A DNA stretch of 64,000 nucleotides from Rhizoclosmatium globosum (lineage: Eukaryota; Chytridiomycota; Chytridiomycetes; Chytridiales; Chytriomycetaceae), in NCBI GenBank assembly GCA_002104985.1, contig MCGO01000026.1, positions 310,001-374,000 of the forward strand. The letters are read 5' to 3'. The notes beneath the pieces were generated by a model, which worked only from the letters and a program-made list of their open reading frames with translations, was not told the origin of the DNA and made no database searches. A program made the translations under genes and the position numbers. Below, piece after piece: positions 25,533-37,159 of this stretch (positions within the stretch are counted from its first letter, which is position 1; every line of letters starts with the position of its first letter).

Positions 25533-27947
25533 CTTTACTTGGAAAACAAGTCAAAAAAGGCACCATTGCCACTCTTGACTAATGCACGCGGATTCCCGTC
25601 TTCAACCACCTTTCCCCCACTCAATACAATCACCCGATCTAATCCCATGACGGTTTCTAATCGATGCGCAATTGTTATGCTTGTCCATTTACGTTGCCCA
25701 CCGTCTCCCACAACAAGTTTGTCAATCACAGCTTGAACAACGCGCTCTGAAGATGCATCCAACGAAGCAGTCGCCTCGTCAAAGACAATCACTCCATCTC
25801 TGTTTCCAAAACTTTGTTTCCGAAGGACAGCGCGTGCGAGGGATATCAGTTGCTTTTGGCCTGATGACAGGTTAGTTCCAGAGTTGGAAATTTTTGAAGA
25901 ATCAGTTACAAATCGGAATGCATTTTCGATTTCGCTTGGGGTGTAACTTGAAGTTGGATCTAAGTTTAGTTGAACAGTGCCTTGAAATAAGAAAGGATCT
26001 TGAGGAACAACGACGAGCTTTTGGCGTCTGAAATTAAAATAAAAAAGGTAGTGAGTTACGGTTAGCTAGAGGAATAAAACTCAACAAATATTTGAGGCCA
26101 ATAACGGCGATGTCGACACCATCGATCCAAACAGTTCCATGTGCGTACTCTTCGAAACGAACAAGCGACATTCCCAACGTTGACTTTCCACTTCCCGTTC
26201 TTCCTACAACCCCAACGGATTCCCCGGCAGCAATCTGAATGCGACTTGTAATGTCGACAGCGAAAGAACCACCAGCTTCTGACTCCTCATTTGTCTGATA
26301 TTGTATTCCAAGATGATCAAACGCAACGCTTCCGTTAGTTGGCCACTGTTTTGAGTTGAGAAATTGCACGAAACACCAACACAAAAAACTTACAGACTCT
26401 GGCACTGGATAATTTTCCACAACCGCAGGACGCTCTTGTTTCAATTTGGTGTACTCAAGCAATCGTTCGACAGATGTCATCGTCATCTCCATCTGCGCAC
26501 TATTCCGTACAAGCCAGGTCAAAACATCCGTAAACATTCCAGAATAATTCAACAGCAATCCAGCCCAACCAGGATCCATCCGCACTCCTCCTCCACGTTC
26601 TGAAACCGCAAAAGCAATTGACAATCCCGTCCCAAATGCTACCAAAGCCCCAACAGTCTCCACTCGTCCAGCAAGCCACCGATTCGCAGCCCACAAAGGC
26701 AAAAACGCGCGATGGTTAACGTCCAATGTCTCCATCATTTGTGACATCCACACATCCGTCTTTCCAAACGCGCGAATCGTTACGGCACCTTGCAATGATT
26801 CTCCAAACGCTGAGTAAATGGGACTTCGTGATCCGCTTTCAAGGCGCTTGAGACTGCGTTGGACGCTCAAGAATTTCCGTGCGATTGGAGTGTAGATGAT
26901 TCCAATTGGGATTGTGAAGAGGAGAAGGAAGGGACTTGCTAGAGAGATCATTGTGGTTACCACGATACCATGAATCACTTGCTGGATTGTTTCGCCGATA
27001 CTTGATGCGACTTCTTGGTCCAGAACTTGAGTGTCCTTTCCAAATCTATTCATCATATTTCCAGATGGTGTCGCGTCAAAGTGAGACAGCGGAGCATTGA
27101 GAAGGCGACTGAATGTTGCGGTGTAAATGTTGGAAGATGCCTTGGTGGAAAAGTGGATTTGATAGATGAAGCGAAGATACAGAGCAGTTATAGCAAGGAC
27201 GACTGTTCCAACATATATGACCAATGGCCATATTGTTTGATCGTTTGACTTTTCGGACCAGGACTTGAGCATGAAATCATGTAAAACTCCGCAGAAATAA
27301 GCAATCACGATGGATCCAATCATCATAATACCAGATCCAAAGCCACCAGCAGAGAGCAGGTAGAATTTGTATGCATCTAAAGATGCTTTTGAGGGTGGTG
27401 CGGCATCCAACTTTGGCTTCACAGTCGCCTTCCCCACCTGTACCTCAACATGTCCATCACGACCCTTAATTTCATCAATTTCATCACCTACATCAATTTC
27501 AATCCCATCTTTCCCGGTAACACCCTCCAACAAACTCCTACCCCCACCTGCAACAATCGCTTCCTTAACAACCACATCCCTCTCCGCAACAGCCACAACC
27601 TCATCAACACCCCCACTCGCAACAACCCGGCCCCCATCCCCCAAAACAACAAGATTCTCAGTAACTCCAACAACACCATCAACCCGATTCGTAACAACCA
27701 CAACCGTCCGGCCCTTCGCAAAACACATCTCCATAAAACACTGCTGAACAATATGTCGCCCCGTGCGTGCATCTACAGCACTCAACACATCATCAAGCAA
27801 CAAAACACGCGATGGAGCGTATACAGCACGCGCAAGGCATATACGTTACCGTTGCCCACCTGAAAGCGTTGTGCCTCTATCGCTATGAATATGTTAGTTT
27901 CAAGGAACAAAATATAGGACTATGAATTTCTTTTCAAAAAACTTACA
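25533..27947 (-). pseudogene. ABCC-type ABC transporter, 3' half (disrupted)
   Basis: This part begins in nucleotide-binding domain 1 at DRGTTLSGGQR and continues through Walker B (VLLLDDVLSAVDA), the second membrane domain and a complete second NBD (GRTGSGKST, VVPQDPFLF, LSSGQKQ, VIVFDEATASLD, H-loop IAHRLETV), ending at TAA 25533. Introns near 27883-27946, 26345-26393 and 26031-26089 have good splice sites. The signature motif reads CAA-CGG-TAA-CGT where family members have Gln: an in-frame stop at 27846-27848. The exon upstream of the 27883-27946 intron also reads TAG in the only compatible frame. Together with the frameshift in the 5' half and the inserted gene, this copy is very likely dead, though decay is recent because the rest is open. 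Confidence 0.8.
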
Positions 27948-30900
27948 TCAGCTAAACGTCGCTAACGTTTCCAGCAGCTCCACGGGAGGCCAAGTGCAAG
28001 ATAGGAAAGTATGTGGATTGTAGTCCACTCGCTGACAGACACAGTTGTTGTCAGCCTGCCTCGAAGTGGAACCAATCCCACCTTCGTCCAATCTCCCTTC
28101 CCTCTCTACCTCCTCCACAGCAACATACTCCAAACGACCTTTGACAATACGTTGTTTCTTTGCAGGAGGAGGTTTGCTGTTGCCACTTCCACCAATCCCT
28201 TCACCACTCCCACCTCCACTCCCACCTCCAGGTCCTCCACCTCCTGGATCACCGTTTCCATCATTGTTTTCAGCACCTCCTGTCCCACCACCTCGAATGT
28301 GGTGATGAACCCGCATCAATGCAATTGCCCATGTTAGATTTTCAATAAACAGGCCACTCTTGACGTCACGTGGGAGACGGAAGGTGAGACTATCACGTGA
28401 ACATATTGCACGACCACTGCAACGTGGGTTGGAGCATTTGAACGTCTTGGCCTTCCCGATGCGTGAGATGCGACCGCAAAAGCACATGATTGTCGATCCA
28501 ATCTGATGAACAGAGTAAATAAAATAAAATGCAATATGAAACTGTTACCTCAGTCACTATGACTACAGCCTTAATCTTTCCAACTCGGCCAACAAGAGGA
28601 AACTGGGGATCAAATTCTTTCGCCATGACTTTCTTCATTTTGGATATATTCCAGGCAGGTCCACCAGGATTAAAGAATGCACCGTCATTTTGGGACTTTT
28701 TATACGCCATTACTGTGGTTTGTTTCCTGATGGAAGCATGGGCCGCATATGAAAGGACAGTCTTGACCCATTCTAAGATAAAAGAGTTTAGATTCAAAAT
28801 TGAGTTATTAATCAAACTCACTTGGAATACCATCTTTCCCAGAAGTCACTTTTTTGTTTGTAGTTTTGGAGCTGAAGTCAGATGTAGCGTACGAGTCAGC
28901 ACCAGAATTCCATTCTGCGGCAGATCGGCGAATTCGTCGAGCATACTTGTTCAAGTCCTCTTGCGCATTCTTGAGCAGGCGCGAGAAGTTGTTGGGGTCG
29001 TCTACACCACCACCATCAAAGGTGACATTGAATTCATTTCGCATCTTTTTCAACTCCTTATCCACTCTCCCCACTTCATCCAGAACATCATTTTCTTCAT
29101 CCACCACATTCATGTCATCTGGGCCAGGAGTTGGCTTACGAACCATTCTTGCTGATGCACGAAACTCCTTCAACCTAGCCTCCAACTCCTGTTCTGCTGC
29201 AAGTACAAGATTTTCCAGTCGCAAGGTTTCTTTTGCCACAACTACATCACCCGCGACATATTCAACAAGATCCAATTCGGCAGCAGCGACAAGGCTCCGT
29301 AGCTCCACCACAGCCTCAAGTTGATCAATGGCCCTGTCTCGAAACGATTGAAGTGTGCTGATGCGTTTCTGAAGACGACAAATCACTGCTTCAAATCCAA
29401 CTCCAATCTGAACAACATGACCAGTACTTGCCATCTGCGTTTCCACTGTTCTTCCACCTGGATCACTGCTCAACAATAAACGAGATGTTCCAAAAGCATT
29501 TCGAAACGCAGATTGAATCGCTTTGGTAGGATTGGTGATCCAAACATCAGGACTTTGAAAAGATCCCATATGAGATTTGAATAGTTCCGTATCTTCAGCA
29601 TGTACTGCGCCCAATTTGACAGAGTCATAACGAAACGAACCAAAGTTGTGCTGACGGGCATACACAATCATGGCATCTTCCAGTTTGCGACGGTGCTTTG
29701 CAGAACATTCATTCTGAATTCGACTTTGGAGGTACCGAACCAAGTGAGATGCATGCCGATATTCCTCGCGTGCCTTTGAGTTTGATGGATTTGCAGCGCA
29801 GTATTTTCGAGTCTCAGCCATCTCTTTGAAAGAATCAGACAATAACTCTTGGACTTCATTAAAGCTGACATCAATGGAATTGCGGTTGACTGCGGGTATT
29901 GTTGTTGGATAACGTCGAGGGTTGTCGTTGTATGAATATTGTTTTGTAATAAGTCCTAATTCATGGGTGTTCATGTGGTGAGTTTGAAGTGGCAGCATTG
30001 ATTTGAAGACTCCAGTTTCCCTGTCATACGTAATGCTGATTGCACCTGGCCTATACGTCACGAATTTATTCTTGGAAGTGGGGAAGGGAATTGTTGAATT
30101 CTTTGTTAGACAGAGGTGGATGACATTCCTTGCACTTGCAAATATCTTGAATCCAAGTGGATGAACAACAAGTCTCCGACAAAGTGGACCTCCTTTTTCC
30201 AAAGCCAGACGCATCAAGTTCAAGTAATGCAAATTGACAGAAGGGAAACTAGGCGGCCATGGAATGTCTCTGGTGGGTTCATCACAAGAATCAAGGAAAT
30301 AGCCCTCAATGTGTGCAGCTATTTGTTTGTTCTGATCAAAGACAGCAGCCTGCATCCCACGAACTTGAGAGTCAGGCAGTCTGGGAAATATGGTGTGACC
30401 ATCAACTGAGAGATATCGACGATTTGAGTGGCTGAACTGGTCATGGAATGATTTTCCTGGTTGAATGTGTTGGATTAGGAAAGTGAAAGGATGATGTCAG
30501 AGATAAGGAAAGAAGATTACCTAATTTCAGGCCAGTTGTAGCCCATGTCTTGTATCTGGCAATAGCGCCTTTGAATGCACCCTGCACAACAAGTGTATTG
30601 TTGAGCTGTTCACCAATTTTGTTTTCCAAGTATCCTTCATTCCCAAACAACAAATACTTGCTCTTGCTCAGCTTAAATATATCAGTGAACAAGTTTACGA
30701 GATCATCTCGGCATAAATGTGTGATGTTGACATATGCCTTTGAAGATACTAGTCGTGTTCCAGTTTCCAGACACAAGCCCCACTGAACAGGCTGGATATA
30801 TTGGAGAATGGAGGTCTTGAACGAGGTTCTTAGTTGAGCAAGAGTTAGCTGGGTGTTGTCCTCTGGGGCTTCGTCTTCTTCATCCACTCCCTCCTCTGAT

Positions 30901-31247
30901 TGAACTCCAACAGCTCCACCAACTCCAACTCCAACTCCGCCTCCAATAGGTACATCAACATCAATTTCTTTCACAGGTTTGATGACAAATGAAACGACAA
31001 GAGCATCCAGAAACTGGGAAAGAGCCTTGGCATAAAAGTTGCCTCCAACAGCAGGCTGAACTCCAGTGATGATTGCTGGATACCTGTAACGCTCAATATT
31101 GTTTCGCGACTTTATAGTTTCTTCGAATTCGTCGTCCAGTTGGTAGGCAGGCAGATTCATGATATACTGATAGATGGAAAGTTCATGTGGACTCAAAGAA
31201 TTCAGAGTCACTTGATGATCAACACCAACCAGAAACCCATCAACCAT
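27948..31247 (-). CDS. Fanzor: eukaryotic TnpB-like RNA-guided nuclease
   Basis: Four exons (31247 to about 30521, 30456-28822, 28772-28549, 28502-27948) give 1046 codons with clean splice sites. LLLSSDPGGRTVET (Asp codon 29462-29464) is the RuvC-I DPGxRT motif of TnpB/Fanzor, followed by the usual STGHVVQIGVG beta hairpin and a helical stretch. Near the C terminus, KAVVIVTEIGSTIMCFCG leads into a zinc ribbon (CFCG, then CSNPRC 17 residues on) and PRDVKSGLFIENL, matching the final RD-x-N-type RuvC-III motif. The Glu in VIVTE is the candidate RuvC-II or relocated catalytic Glu. A Gly-rich tail holds PPPAKKQRIVKGR, an NLS-like patch. Fanzors cut DNA guided by an RNA from their 3' end. At about 1046 residues it is large, with Gly/Val and coiled insertions. 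Confidence 0.85.
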
Positions 31248-31264
31248 ACTGAACGGGCCAGTTT

Positions 31265-33478
31265 CAATAATCACATCCACAGGATTCGAGGGTTTCGGCG
31301 TATCGTGTTGGATCAAACTCGTTTCCAAAGAGGATGTTTTGTTTGATGGATGTGTTTGTGAGGAATGGGGTTTGTGGAGTATATGAGACTGGGTGGGGGG
31401 TTATTTTGGGGGATGAGTGGTAGGTGTTTGATGGGGTATGGACTTTTCCGTTTAATGTTTTGAGTTCTATATTTGGATATAGGACTGTGGTACCTCCTAG
31501 TAATGCAAGTAGCATCGTCGACTTTCCTGCTCCCGATTTTCCAATGATGGTTGTCAACTTTCCTTCTGGGAACGACAGTTCCAAGTTTTGTAACACTGGG
31601 TTATTATCTTCACCACCATAGTTAAAAGGCAGCATTTCCAGTAAATCCCAGCTTCAACTCATTCATTTCATCGTACAATTGTTCAGAATTGCTTCCCAAT
31701 GCAAGTTGTGTTTCAACAACTCTCTCCAAATCAGGCTCCAATAAAAACTCTTCAATACGGCCCAAAGAAACTTTGAGTTCCATTACACTGATTGCTAATT
31801 TCGGTACAATAAACAGAGGATACTTGAGGACGTTGTTATACATTGCCAGAACAGTGAAGGCTGCAGCTGCATCGACAGGCCGAGATGGACCGTTTACAAT
31901 TGCCATCACCAAGAATGTGACTCCCGCTGCAAGAATTGGGCAACATCTCCACACAATTTGTGTCAACATGTTAGAATTCGGTTTCCTCAAATTGGTAGCA
32001 AGAAAATGGGGTTCCCAAGTATACAACTTGATGGTGCGAATCCCAGAAAGTATTTGTGCAAAGTGGGAAAGGCGAGAATCACTGTGGTTCATGAGTTGTT
32101 TCCTGAACTTTTTAATTTGTGCGCCAATTTTTTTCGTGGCGGGGACTGCAAGAGAAAGGGAGAGGAGACCTGCAATAGTTCCTGGGATTCCGATCGTCTG
32201 AATGAGGAGCGTTGAGCAGAGAATAAGAAGGAAGGGCACAGACACAAGATAGTGAGATTGACGAAAACAGGCAAGGATTTTGTCAGTGTCAGCAGTCATG
32301 AGATTTGAAATGGCACCATCTGAAAAGGATACGTTGTTGGAGTTTGCATTTGTTGACAGTGGAGTGGGGGGTTGCATTCTACACAGTCCTTTTTTGAAGA
32401 TGGCACCAAAGAGAGCAGCACGAATTCGAACATCAATTTTTCGATTAACCCAATACAATTGCGATTCCAGAATTGTACGAGCAAATGACGACAGCAATAG
32501 CCCAATGACGGGATACATAATATCTTCGGATTGTGTATTAGAATCTGCAATCGCTCGAAGTATGCGATTGATGAAGAAAGGTCCACCGAAGATGAACAAG
32601 TGGTCAACCAATGATAGTGTGAATTCATATGTCAATATTCCAAAGTTGAGATTGAGTATGATTCGCAGGAGAGTCCCTTTTTCATAACCTGTTTGAACTC
32701 TTTCTCCAAACCGTGCATACACTGTAGCGCCCTTATCGTTGTAATCAAGATGCCACAAATCATCAAAGGTTAACGATCGCGTTGAAGCCAGATTGATAAG
32801 GGAATTCATCCAAGAGAAGGAGACGCGGCTCCACAGCGACGCAACTAATTCAGGCCATACTTTTGATGGATATTCAGCCCAGCTAGGAGCGCAGAGAGCA
32901 AGGAGGGAGTAAAATACAAGACTGAGGGCAGGAAAGAGGGGAGTTTTCCAGTTCACAGCCAAATCAAATACGCTCGCAGCAGCCACGACACGAGCGAGGA
33001 ACAGAAAAGGCGATGTTTTCGACAAATTTCCTCGAATTATGCCCGACGGACGAGCGAGGTAGACCATCACGGCCTTTGACACAACATCAAACACTTTGGA
33101 TGCAACAGCCACAGCCAACACAGAATGAAAGGGTTCAAAGCCGAATGATTCGTCAAAAAAGACAGCGCGAACGAGGGCGGTTGCGAGGCCGAGTGTTGCG
33201 ATTGCTGCGACTGTGACACTTCCTCGCTCGTCTTGTTCGCATTCTTCGGCTTCGTCTTCTTCGTCTTCTTCTTCTTCTTGTCCGTCTTCCACTCCGTTTC
33301 TTTCAGATTCACTGGATTGGACTGCCGAATACGATCCTTCTTTCTGGAGACCAGCGATCAATAGAACAATGCTCAACACGAATGGAACTGCAAATGGAAG
33401 TAGTCTAATAGAAGAGAATCAGGCCTTCGTCCTCCTGGCTGCTGGTACTTGCCTGAAAACTTGGTCGTAGTCTGTCAT
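31265..33478 (-). pseudogene. ABCC-type ABC transporter, 5' half (disrupted)
   Basis: ATG ends at 33478. A first exon of about 10 codons joins to the long second exon best by a GC-AG intron (GCAAGT donor, CTATTAG acceptor), giving MTDYDQVFRLLPFAVPFVLS. Then come an acidic loop, membrane domain 1 (about 10 hydrophobic segments) and the start of NBD1 with GKSGAGKST and a Q-loop (VSYTPQTPFL). At 31624-31627 a run of four T (coding strand) shifts the frame: one T fewer restores TGNAAFNYGGEDNNPVLQ, the expected entry to NBD1. The frame then ends at YAETLESCGCDY, just where the Fanzor gene begins, and the missing NBD1 part resumes at 27882. ABCC transporters export conjugates or drugs. Confidence 0.8.
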
Positions 33479-35502: not shown

Positions 35503-35870
35503 GTTGACATCAAACATGCAATGAATTTCCAATAAAGTTGTCTCGGTTTCAAGTCAATTTTGGAAAAAGTTTTGGCACATTCTTGGATCATTGTGTATTT
35601 TGCTTGAAACAAATGGAGCTTTTTGGTGCCATTCAACAGTACGAAGAGAAGGACTGCATCAAAAATGTGACTGGTTTTATTGTCAAATCATTCCACTTTA
35701 AAGCAACACTGTGTTCGAGTTGCCCAAAAAATTCAAGTCAATTATGTAGGCAATGTTCATGTTGGAGATGTGGATGTTTCTGTTGACAATGTTGAATGGC
35801 TTTACAGTGAATGTGTTTGTTTTTGGTGGTGGAGAATGGTGTTTGGGTTCAGCTTGGAGTTCTTTTTCAT
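35503..35870. other. 3' flank of aminopeptidase 1
   Basis: About 370 nt after the stop codon, starting with an AATAAA-like signal near 35531. AT-rich, with short frames that show no domain or codon structure. It leads directly into the palindrome. Confidence 0.35.
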
Positions 35871-36267
35871 ACCACTGTTCCAAGTGTTGGCCACTACCAC
35901 TTCAACCCCACCAGGAACCAACCTGTGGCAGCAAAGGTCAGAGTGCTGGATCTTCATTCTATTCTATTTGGGGACAGGGTGGTTCTTTGAGGTTTCCGAC
36001 ATCAAAAAAGATCAAAACTACATTCTATCTCTCATTTGTTCATGGTTTGCATCATGATTGCCGCCTGGTCTCATGAACAACTGAGAAATAGATTGGGTTT
36101 TTGTTGAGACTCTTTTGGAGCAGATAACTCATCTGATGACAGAAGCCTCAGAGAACCACATTGTCCCAAAATACAATAGAATGAAGACCCAGTACTTCAA
36201 CCTTTTCTGTCACTGGTTGATTTCTTGTGGGGTTAAATGCGGTAGTGGCCAAAGCTTGGAATAATGG
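35871..36267. repeat. 400 bp imperfect palindrome (fold-back element)
   Basis: The left arm (about 35871-36046) matches the reverse complement of the right arm (about 36072-36267). Clear blocks are TTGGCCACTACC, TCAACCCCAC, GATCTTCATTCTATT, GGTTCTTTGAGG and, nearest the centre, CTCTCATTTGTTCATG against its inverted partner CATGAACAACTGAGAA. The loop is only about 25 nt. Arms differ by many substitutions and small gaps, so the inversion is old. It lies between two tail-to-tail aminopeptidase genes. Confidence 0.8.
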
Positions 36268-37159
36268 GGTAGAATCTAATACAATATTGAGTGGATAAAA
36301 CTTAATAAGAAAAATTTGAATCAGCTCTGCCAGAAGCAAGTGTGCAAAATACGGCAGAGGAGGAGGGGAGGGAGGCAATAACAACAGAAGCTTTGGTTTC
36401 AACTTGAAGAAAGAAGAGAAGGTGAATCCTCTGGTATCAAACATCAGATCTTGCTCTTGTTCTTCAAGATTTGTTGGTGTTTTTCCAAGCTCCATGAGGA
36501 TTCTTGTCCTTGAGAGGATGACTCCCAGCCATTACGAGAGGAACTTGAACTAGCATCTCAGTGAGTATTGATGTTAAGTTTTCTCCCAAGTGAGTAGAAA
36601 GATAGGGTAGCCTGTTGTGGTGAAAAGGACAAACGTTAGAAATAGTGTCAAATATAAGGAGACATATTACAGGTGTCCTTGATTATGATGAAAGAAGTCA
36701 AGCATTGAAAAACGAATACAGACAGACCTCATATAGAACATAGGATGCTTGCGTGAATAGTTTTGTCAGTGTTTTCTTGTGCCAAAACTAAAGAGGGAAT
36801 TCGACAACATCAATGTTAAACAAGCCAGCAATGACTGAGAAAGAGAACAGCATATGGAATGTTTAGTATCAATGATTTCAAGTAGAACAAAAGAAGAGGA
36901 AGAGGAAGGGCAGATGCCCACTCTCCTCCACGTACAAGAGAGCTGTAAGGACAGCCACAAGACGGAGAGTCGAGATAGTTGATGGAAGGAAGAAGTAAGT
37001 GGCCGAAGCGTGAAATTTTCCCGTGTACTGTAGGATGATGGCAGAAAGTGCAGAGAGCACTCAGGATGAACGTGGACTGCTATACACACCTCGCCTTATG
37101 CGGACGGGGATGAAGGATCAGAAAGATTTACAGAAATTTCAAGGGACCAAAAAGTTTTT
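36268..37159. other. Gene-poor spacer between the aminopeptidases
   Basis: About 900 nt with only short frames. A minus-strand frame at 36878-37060 has hydrophobic stretches (FFLPSTISTLRLVAVLTALL) that could be a remnant of ABC membrane sequence, given the clear relic next to it, but I could not align it. No RNA gene seen. Confidence 0.35.

Follow-up and report, generated by a model that had tools for sequence, protein, structure and literature searches.

A 5'-truncated copy of a highly divergent, predicted Fanzor-type mobile element lies in a broken ABC-transporter gene of the chytrid Rhizoclosmatium globosum

Among the described Fanzor systems, SpuFz1 (SPu-1-1p) of Spizellomyces punctatus comes from a chytrid host, arranges three acidic residues (D-E-D) around a Cys ribbon, and resides in a multicopy mobile element (PMC10432273, PMC3627910, both in the portions of text consulted). 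SPu-1 itself is a ~2.1-kb element with a single ORF of 633 aa, with inverted repeats of 33 bp and with putative TA duplications. The Chlamydomonas families CRe-1, -2 and -3 (Fanzor1, Helitron2), as given in the excerpted text of PMC3627910, encode multi-exon Fanzors and show frequent 5' truncation together with an excess of 3' ends; their ends are common with those of verified Helitrons, and many of their truncated copies are flanked by 7-19 bp duplications. A third system in the same excerpt of PMC3627910, MCi-2 of Mucor circinelloides, has its Fanzor in a conserved 3' part, ‘fuzzy’ 5' ends and no recognizable inverted repeats; it also has duplications of 11-12 bp, and one of its subfamilies carries a partial Crypton transposase.

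The element of R. globosum resembles each of these systems in part. Like SPu-1, it is a multicopy mobile element of a chytrid that encodes a D-E-D arrangement around a Cys ribbon; however, a full copy is ~12.8 kb long and contains introns, its Fanzor frame runs to 1474 aa, and no inverted repeats or TA duplications were found. It shares the multi-exon structure, the 5' truncation and the 3'-end excess with the CRe families, whereas neither the verified Helitron ends nor the duplications of those families were found, save for a repeat of 18 nt in the flanks of one copy among 14. Compared to MCi-2, which it matches in the 3' position of the Fanzor, the variable 5' ends and the lack of recognizable inverted repeats, it has an orphan upstream protein instead. 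The frame of 1474 residues also exceeds the length of Fanzor1 proteins, which reach up to about 800 residues according to the section of PMC10711439 at hand.

The window analysed here is a 64,000-nucleotide stretch of the R. globosum genome. We take the strain to be JEL800. Four exons on the minus strand, separated by introns with GT/AG borders, splice to give 1046 uninterrupted codons followed by a stop. Exon 1 of the remaining frame (31247-30521) opens with the first ATG that the truncation has spared; in other copies the frame reaches further upstream than 31247. Exon 2 (30456-28822) encodes an N-terminal part, the RuvC-I motif and a coiled insert; exon 3 (28772-28549) ends in a putative RuvC-II Glu; and exon 4 (28502-27948) comprises the Cys ribbon, the RD motif and a Gly-rich tail, with its stop 6 nt before the element end. 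The junctions GIP/KWVKT and VTE/IGST are also present in the NCBI model P0004 of a sister copy, and LKFG/KSF in another such model, P0003. In the spliced protein, DPGGRT runs from residue 574, VIVTE occupies 858-862, the ribbon starts at C869, PRD lies at 906-908 and IEN begins at 915. Both the four clean exons and this order of motifs had been proposed from the DNA alone, and both held up, with every motif assigned to a residue and the junctions recurring in the sister-copy models. The three candidate acidic residues are D574 of DPGGRT (RuvC-I; codon 29462..29464), E862 at the ‘Ealt’ position six residues before C869 (codon 28549..28551), and D908 of PRD (codon 28365..28367), which presumably represents RuvC-III, with D899 as a second candidate. 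The four-Cys ribbon C869/C871/C885/C890 is encoded at 28419..28484; all of these features are on the minus strand.

Alignment by blastn to 20 other loci revealed that this frame belongs to a 5'-truncated copy of a mobile element, of which only the 3' part is present (27942..31279, minus strand). In 17 of the 20 fetched loci the alignments to the window copy end exactly at 31279, and 16 of those 17 have more than 3 kb further upstream in common. Sixteen of 20 loci, a count that includes the window and leaves out the fragment L028, continue for more than 3 kb upstream; a search started from the full copy L013 gave 15 other loci that match over more than 3 kb past the truncation point. Three copies, those in the window, L011 and L012, each break off at a different point. 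An internal deletion, rather than simple 5' truncation, accounts for the shortening of L018, in which pieces of the upstream region lie directly ahead of the Fanzor part. The C63 copy has a Fanzor frame of 1474 residues that is open through the window breakpoint at residue 406, where MVDGF is at 417; thus, about 406 residues are absent from the window copy. The gene of about 1046 residues claimed by the sequence-only reading is therefore a true open frame of that length, but one left over from a longer, 5'-truncated frame. Its further suggestion of a complete and perhaps active gene was not supported, given the missing N-terminal residues and the position of the copy inside a broken ABC-transporter gene.

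The interrupted ABC-transporter gene is also on the minus strand. Its 5' part (31280..33418) consists of two ORFs with Pfam matches to ABC_membrane and to positions 1-80 of the 137 of ABC_tran, and the transporter sequence upstream of the window copy ends in ETLES. Its 3' part (26034..27882) resumes from DRGTTLSGGQR. The gene is split inside the first nucleotide-binding domain, and a TAA directly follows LSGGQR, before RICLARAV. No close paralog of this gene was found in the R. globosum genome (the best is at 40%). We infer that target sequence was lost at the insertion site. Elsewhere in the window, away from the Fanzor copy, diverged fragments of the upstream region of the element (68-77%) lie at 35612-35697, 35870-36009 and 36067-36278.

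The window copy is a member of a family that is under purifying selection. Near-full exon 2 occurs at 20 loci including the window, in addition to 8 fragments, and by identity to the window these fall into two groups, with 13 loci at 90-100% and 7 at 76-78%. Exon 2 is stop-free at 18 of the 19 near-full loci other than the window, and for the pairs computed dN/dS is 0.12-0.43 over exons 1-3 and 0.01-0.07 over the core of exon 4. Phylogenetic analysis pairs the window copy with L018 (support 93/90). The introns are kept in 12 mapped loci; L022 and L027 are without some 3' exons, and the 3' terminus is absent from L016, L022 and L027 (3/20 loci).

Two full copies measure ~12.8 kb or more and are 91% identical over ~12.8 kb, with the Fanzor as the 3'-most part of the element. 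In the window, the 3' terminus reads GCTGATGTAAG at 27942-27952. A 25-nt terminal pattern gave 27 matches, compared to none for the reversed control. The last 121 nt of the element match at least 33 places, whereas the first 247 nt of one copy match at least 11, none of them a copy of the 77% group. Of 6 copies folded, 4 are predicted to form an 8-bp terminal hairpin (27961-27968 with 27945-27952, minus strand), with 7 bp in one of the four; the other two do not form it. Inspection of the hairpin columns by eye showed no covariation. The position of the 5' start varies from copy to copy, long ones included, and three copies of the second group begin at the identical CCCTCAAAATTTCTG. At 5 of 16 short loci examined the matches to the full copy shrink to 55-82 nt, where internal deletion is also possible. 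No end-to-end terminal inverted repeats were found in the two full copies at their common 5' end, a position that turned out to lie short of the outermost one. Target duplications next to the ends are likewise missing from 11/11 copies, the 4-8 nt shared being comparable to cross pairs (5.8 on average, at most 11). When the flanks were widened to 230 nt, the longest repeat was no more than 10 nt in 13 of 14 copies (maximum 11 in 182 cross pairs). In the remaining copy, L009, the 18-nt repeat CAAACCTAGATGATGTTT flanks the element, one occurrence lying 195 nt ahead of the 5' end used and the other 49 nt past the 3' end; judged from the sequence, this may be a target duplication, with the true 5' end lying further out.

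Some minor features of the ends were also observed. The 18-nt repeat described above, which lies on either side of one copy and beyond the ends used, was noted in the flanks of L009 and L057. Locus L051 (46-100 and 282-351) contains a 55-nt remnant of the 3' end that has the same orientation as the full copy L021 and precedes its 5' start by ~180 nt. L042 and L043 are element remnants in which the terminal loop is replaced by another sequence common to both.

We propose, as the probable explanation, that the window holds the shortened gene of a Fanzor1-type nuclease which is very divergent and is carried by a ~12.8-kb element that is copied from a fixed 3' end. By analogy with SpuFz1, the full-length protein would bind an RNA that derives from the conserved 3' end and in which flanking sequence serves as the guide; matching DNA would be cut by a RuvC site composed of the residues corresponding to D574, E862 and D908. 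Copying would begin at the fixed 3' end and halt at variable upstream points. The window copy would have halted inside the Fanzor frame, landed in the nucleotide-binding domain of the ABC transporter and broken the gene.

As for how such copying might proceed, one-ended rolling-circle (Helitron-like) transposition, as in the Chlamydomonas Fanzor1 families, is a real possibility, although one we stop short of favoring. The published Chlamydomonas case combines 5' truncation with an excess of 3' ends (PMC3627910, in the excerpt cited above), and the retained introns, the terminal hairpin and 18 Helitron_like_N matches in the R. globosum genome point in the same direction. The flank repeat of L009 lies outside the ends used, and some of the published truncated copies have duplications as well. 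However, the element ends differ from those of Helitrons (5' TC, 3' CTRR), with no CTRR end, and the 5' hairpin has just 4 bp and is weak in the sequences folded. Moreover, Pfam domains of Rep or helicase are absent from the 10 element ORFs scanned, and duplications from 13 of 14 copies. The element is possibly a non-autonomous Helitron relative.

A reverse transcriptase of the LINE type acting in trans, which would copy the RNA from its 3' hairpin and thereby leave 5' truncations and short carried 3' flanks, appears rather unlikely. It is consistent with the common 3' end, the 5' truncation and the 55-82 nt matches at five loci, as well as with the terminal hairpin and the shared flanks of 14-40 nt. 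Reverse transcription in trans thus fits the truncation but not the introns retained in the 12 mapped loci. Nor do duplications adjoin the ends in any of 11 copies, and in wider flanks L009 is alone among 14; the 10 element ORFs scanned also lack a reverse-transcriptase domain.

The assignment to Fanzor rests on a two-part fingerprint and on the order of motifs. In the section of PMC10711439 consulted, the Fanzor fingerprint combines a DPG at RuvC-I with a catalytic Glu (Ealt) placed six residues ahead of the zinc finger. The protein has DPGGRT at 574, invariant in all 10 rows of alignment A1, and E862-IGSTIM-C869, in which the Glu is a putative catalytic residue. VIVTE is found in 11/11 other copies with exon 3 read whole; in a twelfth copy, L022, the match covers no more of exon 3 than its first 11 residues. 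Compared to the Fanzor motif D-X(125,275)-[TS][TS]XX-C4-X(5,50)-RD, as given in the excerpt of PMC3627910, the window protein keeps the order D574...ST-IM-C869...RD908, whereas its first spacer of 290 is beyond the range 125-275. The distance from the Asp to the Glu likewise exceeds the published ranges. Its ribbon is CxC-x13-CxxxxC, compared to CxxC...CxxC. The fingerprint expression, with spacing ranges widened beforehand to fit the window protein, was kept in 0 of 200000 shuffles of the protein. By fingerprint and motif order, the family is a new, highly divergent variant of the predicted Fanzor type, in agreement with the initial proposal of a large divergent Fanzor-type protein in a chytrid, for which D574, E862 and D908 are the three candidate acids.

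Profile searches gave a different picture. The protein itself matched none of the TnpB or Fanzor models or chains in sequence searches of Pfam, NCBIfam and PDB. PF07282 (OrfB zinc ribbon) gave no match at a maximum E of 10, a setting at which the HMMER filters drop most matches above ~0.1; this weakens membership by profile and leaves the fingerprint unaffected. A viral_contigs scan revealed no relative, Rfam matched nothing within the 64-kb window, and in the paper collection searched no paper joins Fanzor and Rhizoclosmatium. An unrelated zinc-ribbon protein that fits the motif by chance would account for the absence of a relevant profile match at the thresholds used, and for the probability of only 41% in the family comparison described below. 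We nevertheless regard such a coincidence as distinctly improbable in view of the motif order, the exact six-residue spacing of the Glu, a ribbon match over 32 columns and the outcome of the shuffles.

A search of the genome with PF07282 yielded 13 matches, all under the cut-off, 5 of which cover just the end of the profile. L036, L068, L069 and L070 form a second multicopy Fanzor-like family of the R. globosum genome, and the one member scanned, L036, scored E 0.003 against PF07282, below the cut-off. The two families share E-x6-C, an ST before the ribbon and a ribbon alignment over 32 columns; however, the second family has GDIG in place of DPG, ORFs of 384-415 aa and an RDxDA ending. In a single hhalign comparison the ribbons match over these 32 columns with 41% identity and an E of 2.8e-4, at a probability of just 41%. 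The ribbon profile alignment pairs IVTEIGSTIMC-FCGRISRIGKAKTFKCSNPRC with FVTECQSTVLCSSCSCHSPPYRRRKFACSNYFC, and BLASTP between the families gave a weak E of 0.059. Another profile comparison of the two families aligned just the coiled insert and is not used as support. Altogether, a new Fanzor-like lineage appears to be missed by the standard zinc-ribbon profile, so surveys starting from this profile may undercount Fanzors.

The 3' end of the element stands out at the nucleotide level. Between the two groups, the last ~240 nt are 83-92% identical (30-nt bins), compared to 55-79% in 38 of 45 windows of 150 columns, with further peaks around RuvC-I (86-92%) and in part of exon 4 (86%). The reading frame of this end nevertheless varies: among 17 copies, 6 are in frame 0, 10 in frame 1 and 1 in frame 2, with 4 other copies unscorable. 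As three frames run over one conserved 3' end, the conservation is not that of a protein. Accordingly, the terminal NLS-like tail described by the sequence-only reading is not conserved protein, the last ~30 codons being read in different frames between copies. Nucleotide conservation despite the frame changes is fitting for a guide-RNA scaffold, for which the terminal 82 nt (27942..28023, minus strand) are the candidate; the adjacent 3' flank (27922..27941, minus strand) would then occupy the guide position.

These 3' flanks are partly shared between copies. In a comparison of 23 flanks, with 3 segmental duplicates dropped and one mismatch allowed, the sequence immediately behind the element end agrees over 18 nt or more in 7 of 253 pairs (shuffled maximum 17 in 2000 trials), in addition to one pair agreeing over 14 nt; the shared flanks are 14-40 nt long. 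Such sharing is what RNA-guided homing would predict, in which copies insert where the genome already matches the guide of the donor, as is the common flank of L015 and L020, which are not sisters in the tree. But exact copies of two flank motifs occur at element ends alone (6/6 and 3/3), and two further places in the genome differ from them by 2 nt. No unoccupied matching target was thus found, and the flank is more probably carried along by the element than a sign of a target already in place. An inherited flank stretch explains the data with less, which makes homing very unlikely, even though plain inheritance does not explain the common flank of L015 and L020 without gene conversion. The first six flank bases are T-rich, with T in 15-22 of 23 copies per position, as a target preference or an RNA terminator might produce.

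It is extremely improbable that the 1046-residue frame in the window is an intact and active Fanzor gene standing by itself, despite the open frame, the clean splice sites and the acidic positions, because 17 of 20 alignments stop at 31279 with 16 of those loci continuing for more than 3 kb upstream, the C63 frame is open through the breakpoint, no element sequence lies upstream of 31279 at the window locus, and broken ABC-gene sequence borders the copy at either end. We return to the preferred reading, a truncated copy of a longer Fanzor1-type protein, whose frame probably continues even further upstream into the orphan protein. The orphan ORF is open past two further marker peptides in 12 of 13 copies that hold the marker peptide (17 searched). 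An exon beginning KQPRR is present in 16 of 17 copies and reads in frame into the Fanzor start, and the NCBI model P0006 joins the orphan and the Fanzor. In the junction region upstream of the Fanzor, the C63 copy is 7 nt shorter than the C13 copy. Homologs of the orphan were found in R. globosum alone (2 proteins).

Several ORFs further upstream, in the same direction, show third-position bias, and one ubiquitin-like domain (E 1.2e-5) is encoded there as well. We infer that the orphan, these ORFs and the Fanzor may all be one protein. In the paper collection searched, a single paper combines Fanzor with ubiquitin-like and fusion, and it mentions Fanzor just once. A broader scheme, which we offer as speculative and unlikely, would make the Fanzor the C-terminal module of a giant protein of at least about 1850 and possibly more than 3000 residues, with the ubiquitin-like domain upstream. 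In that scheme the transposition end would coincide with the 3' end of the guide-RNA scaffold, and new copies would inherit the guide-position sequence of their parent, so the nuclease would keep a lineage-specific guide while spreading. With many copies that have a common 3' end and readable flanks, the family allows guide position, scaffold and insertion to be studied together.

A near-identical Fanzor C-terminus is also present in Rhizoclosmatium hyalinum (P0002; 99% over 18% of the query part). There, the NCBI model joins it to a PF00150 (glycoside hydrolase) domain, perhaps reflecting an insertion beside that gene.
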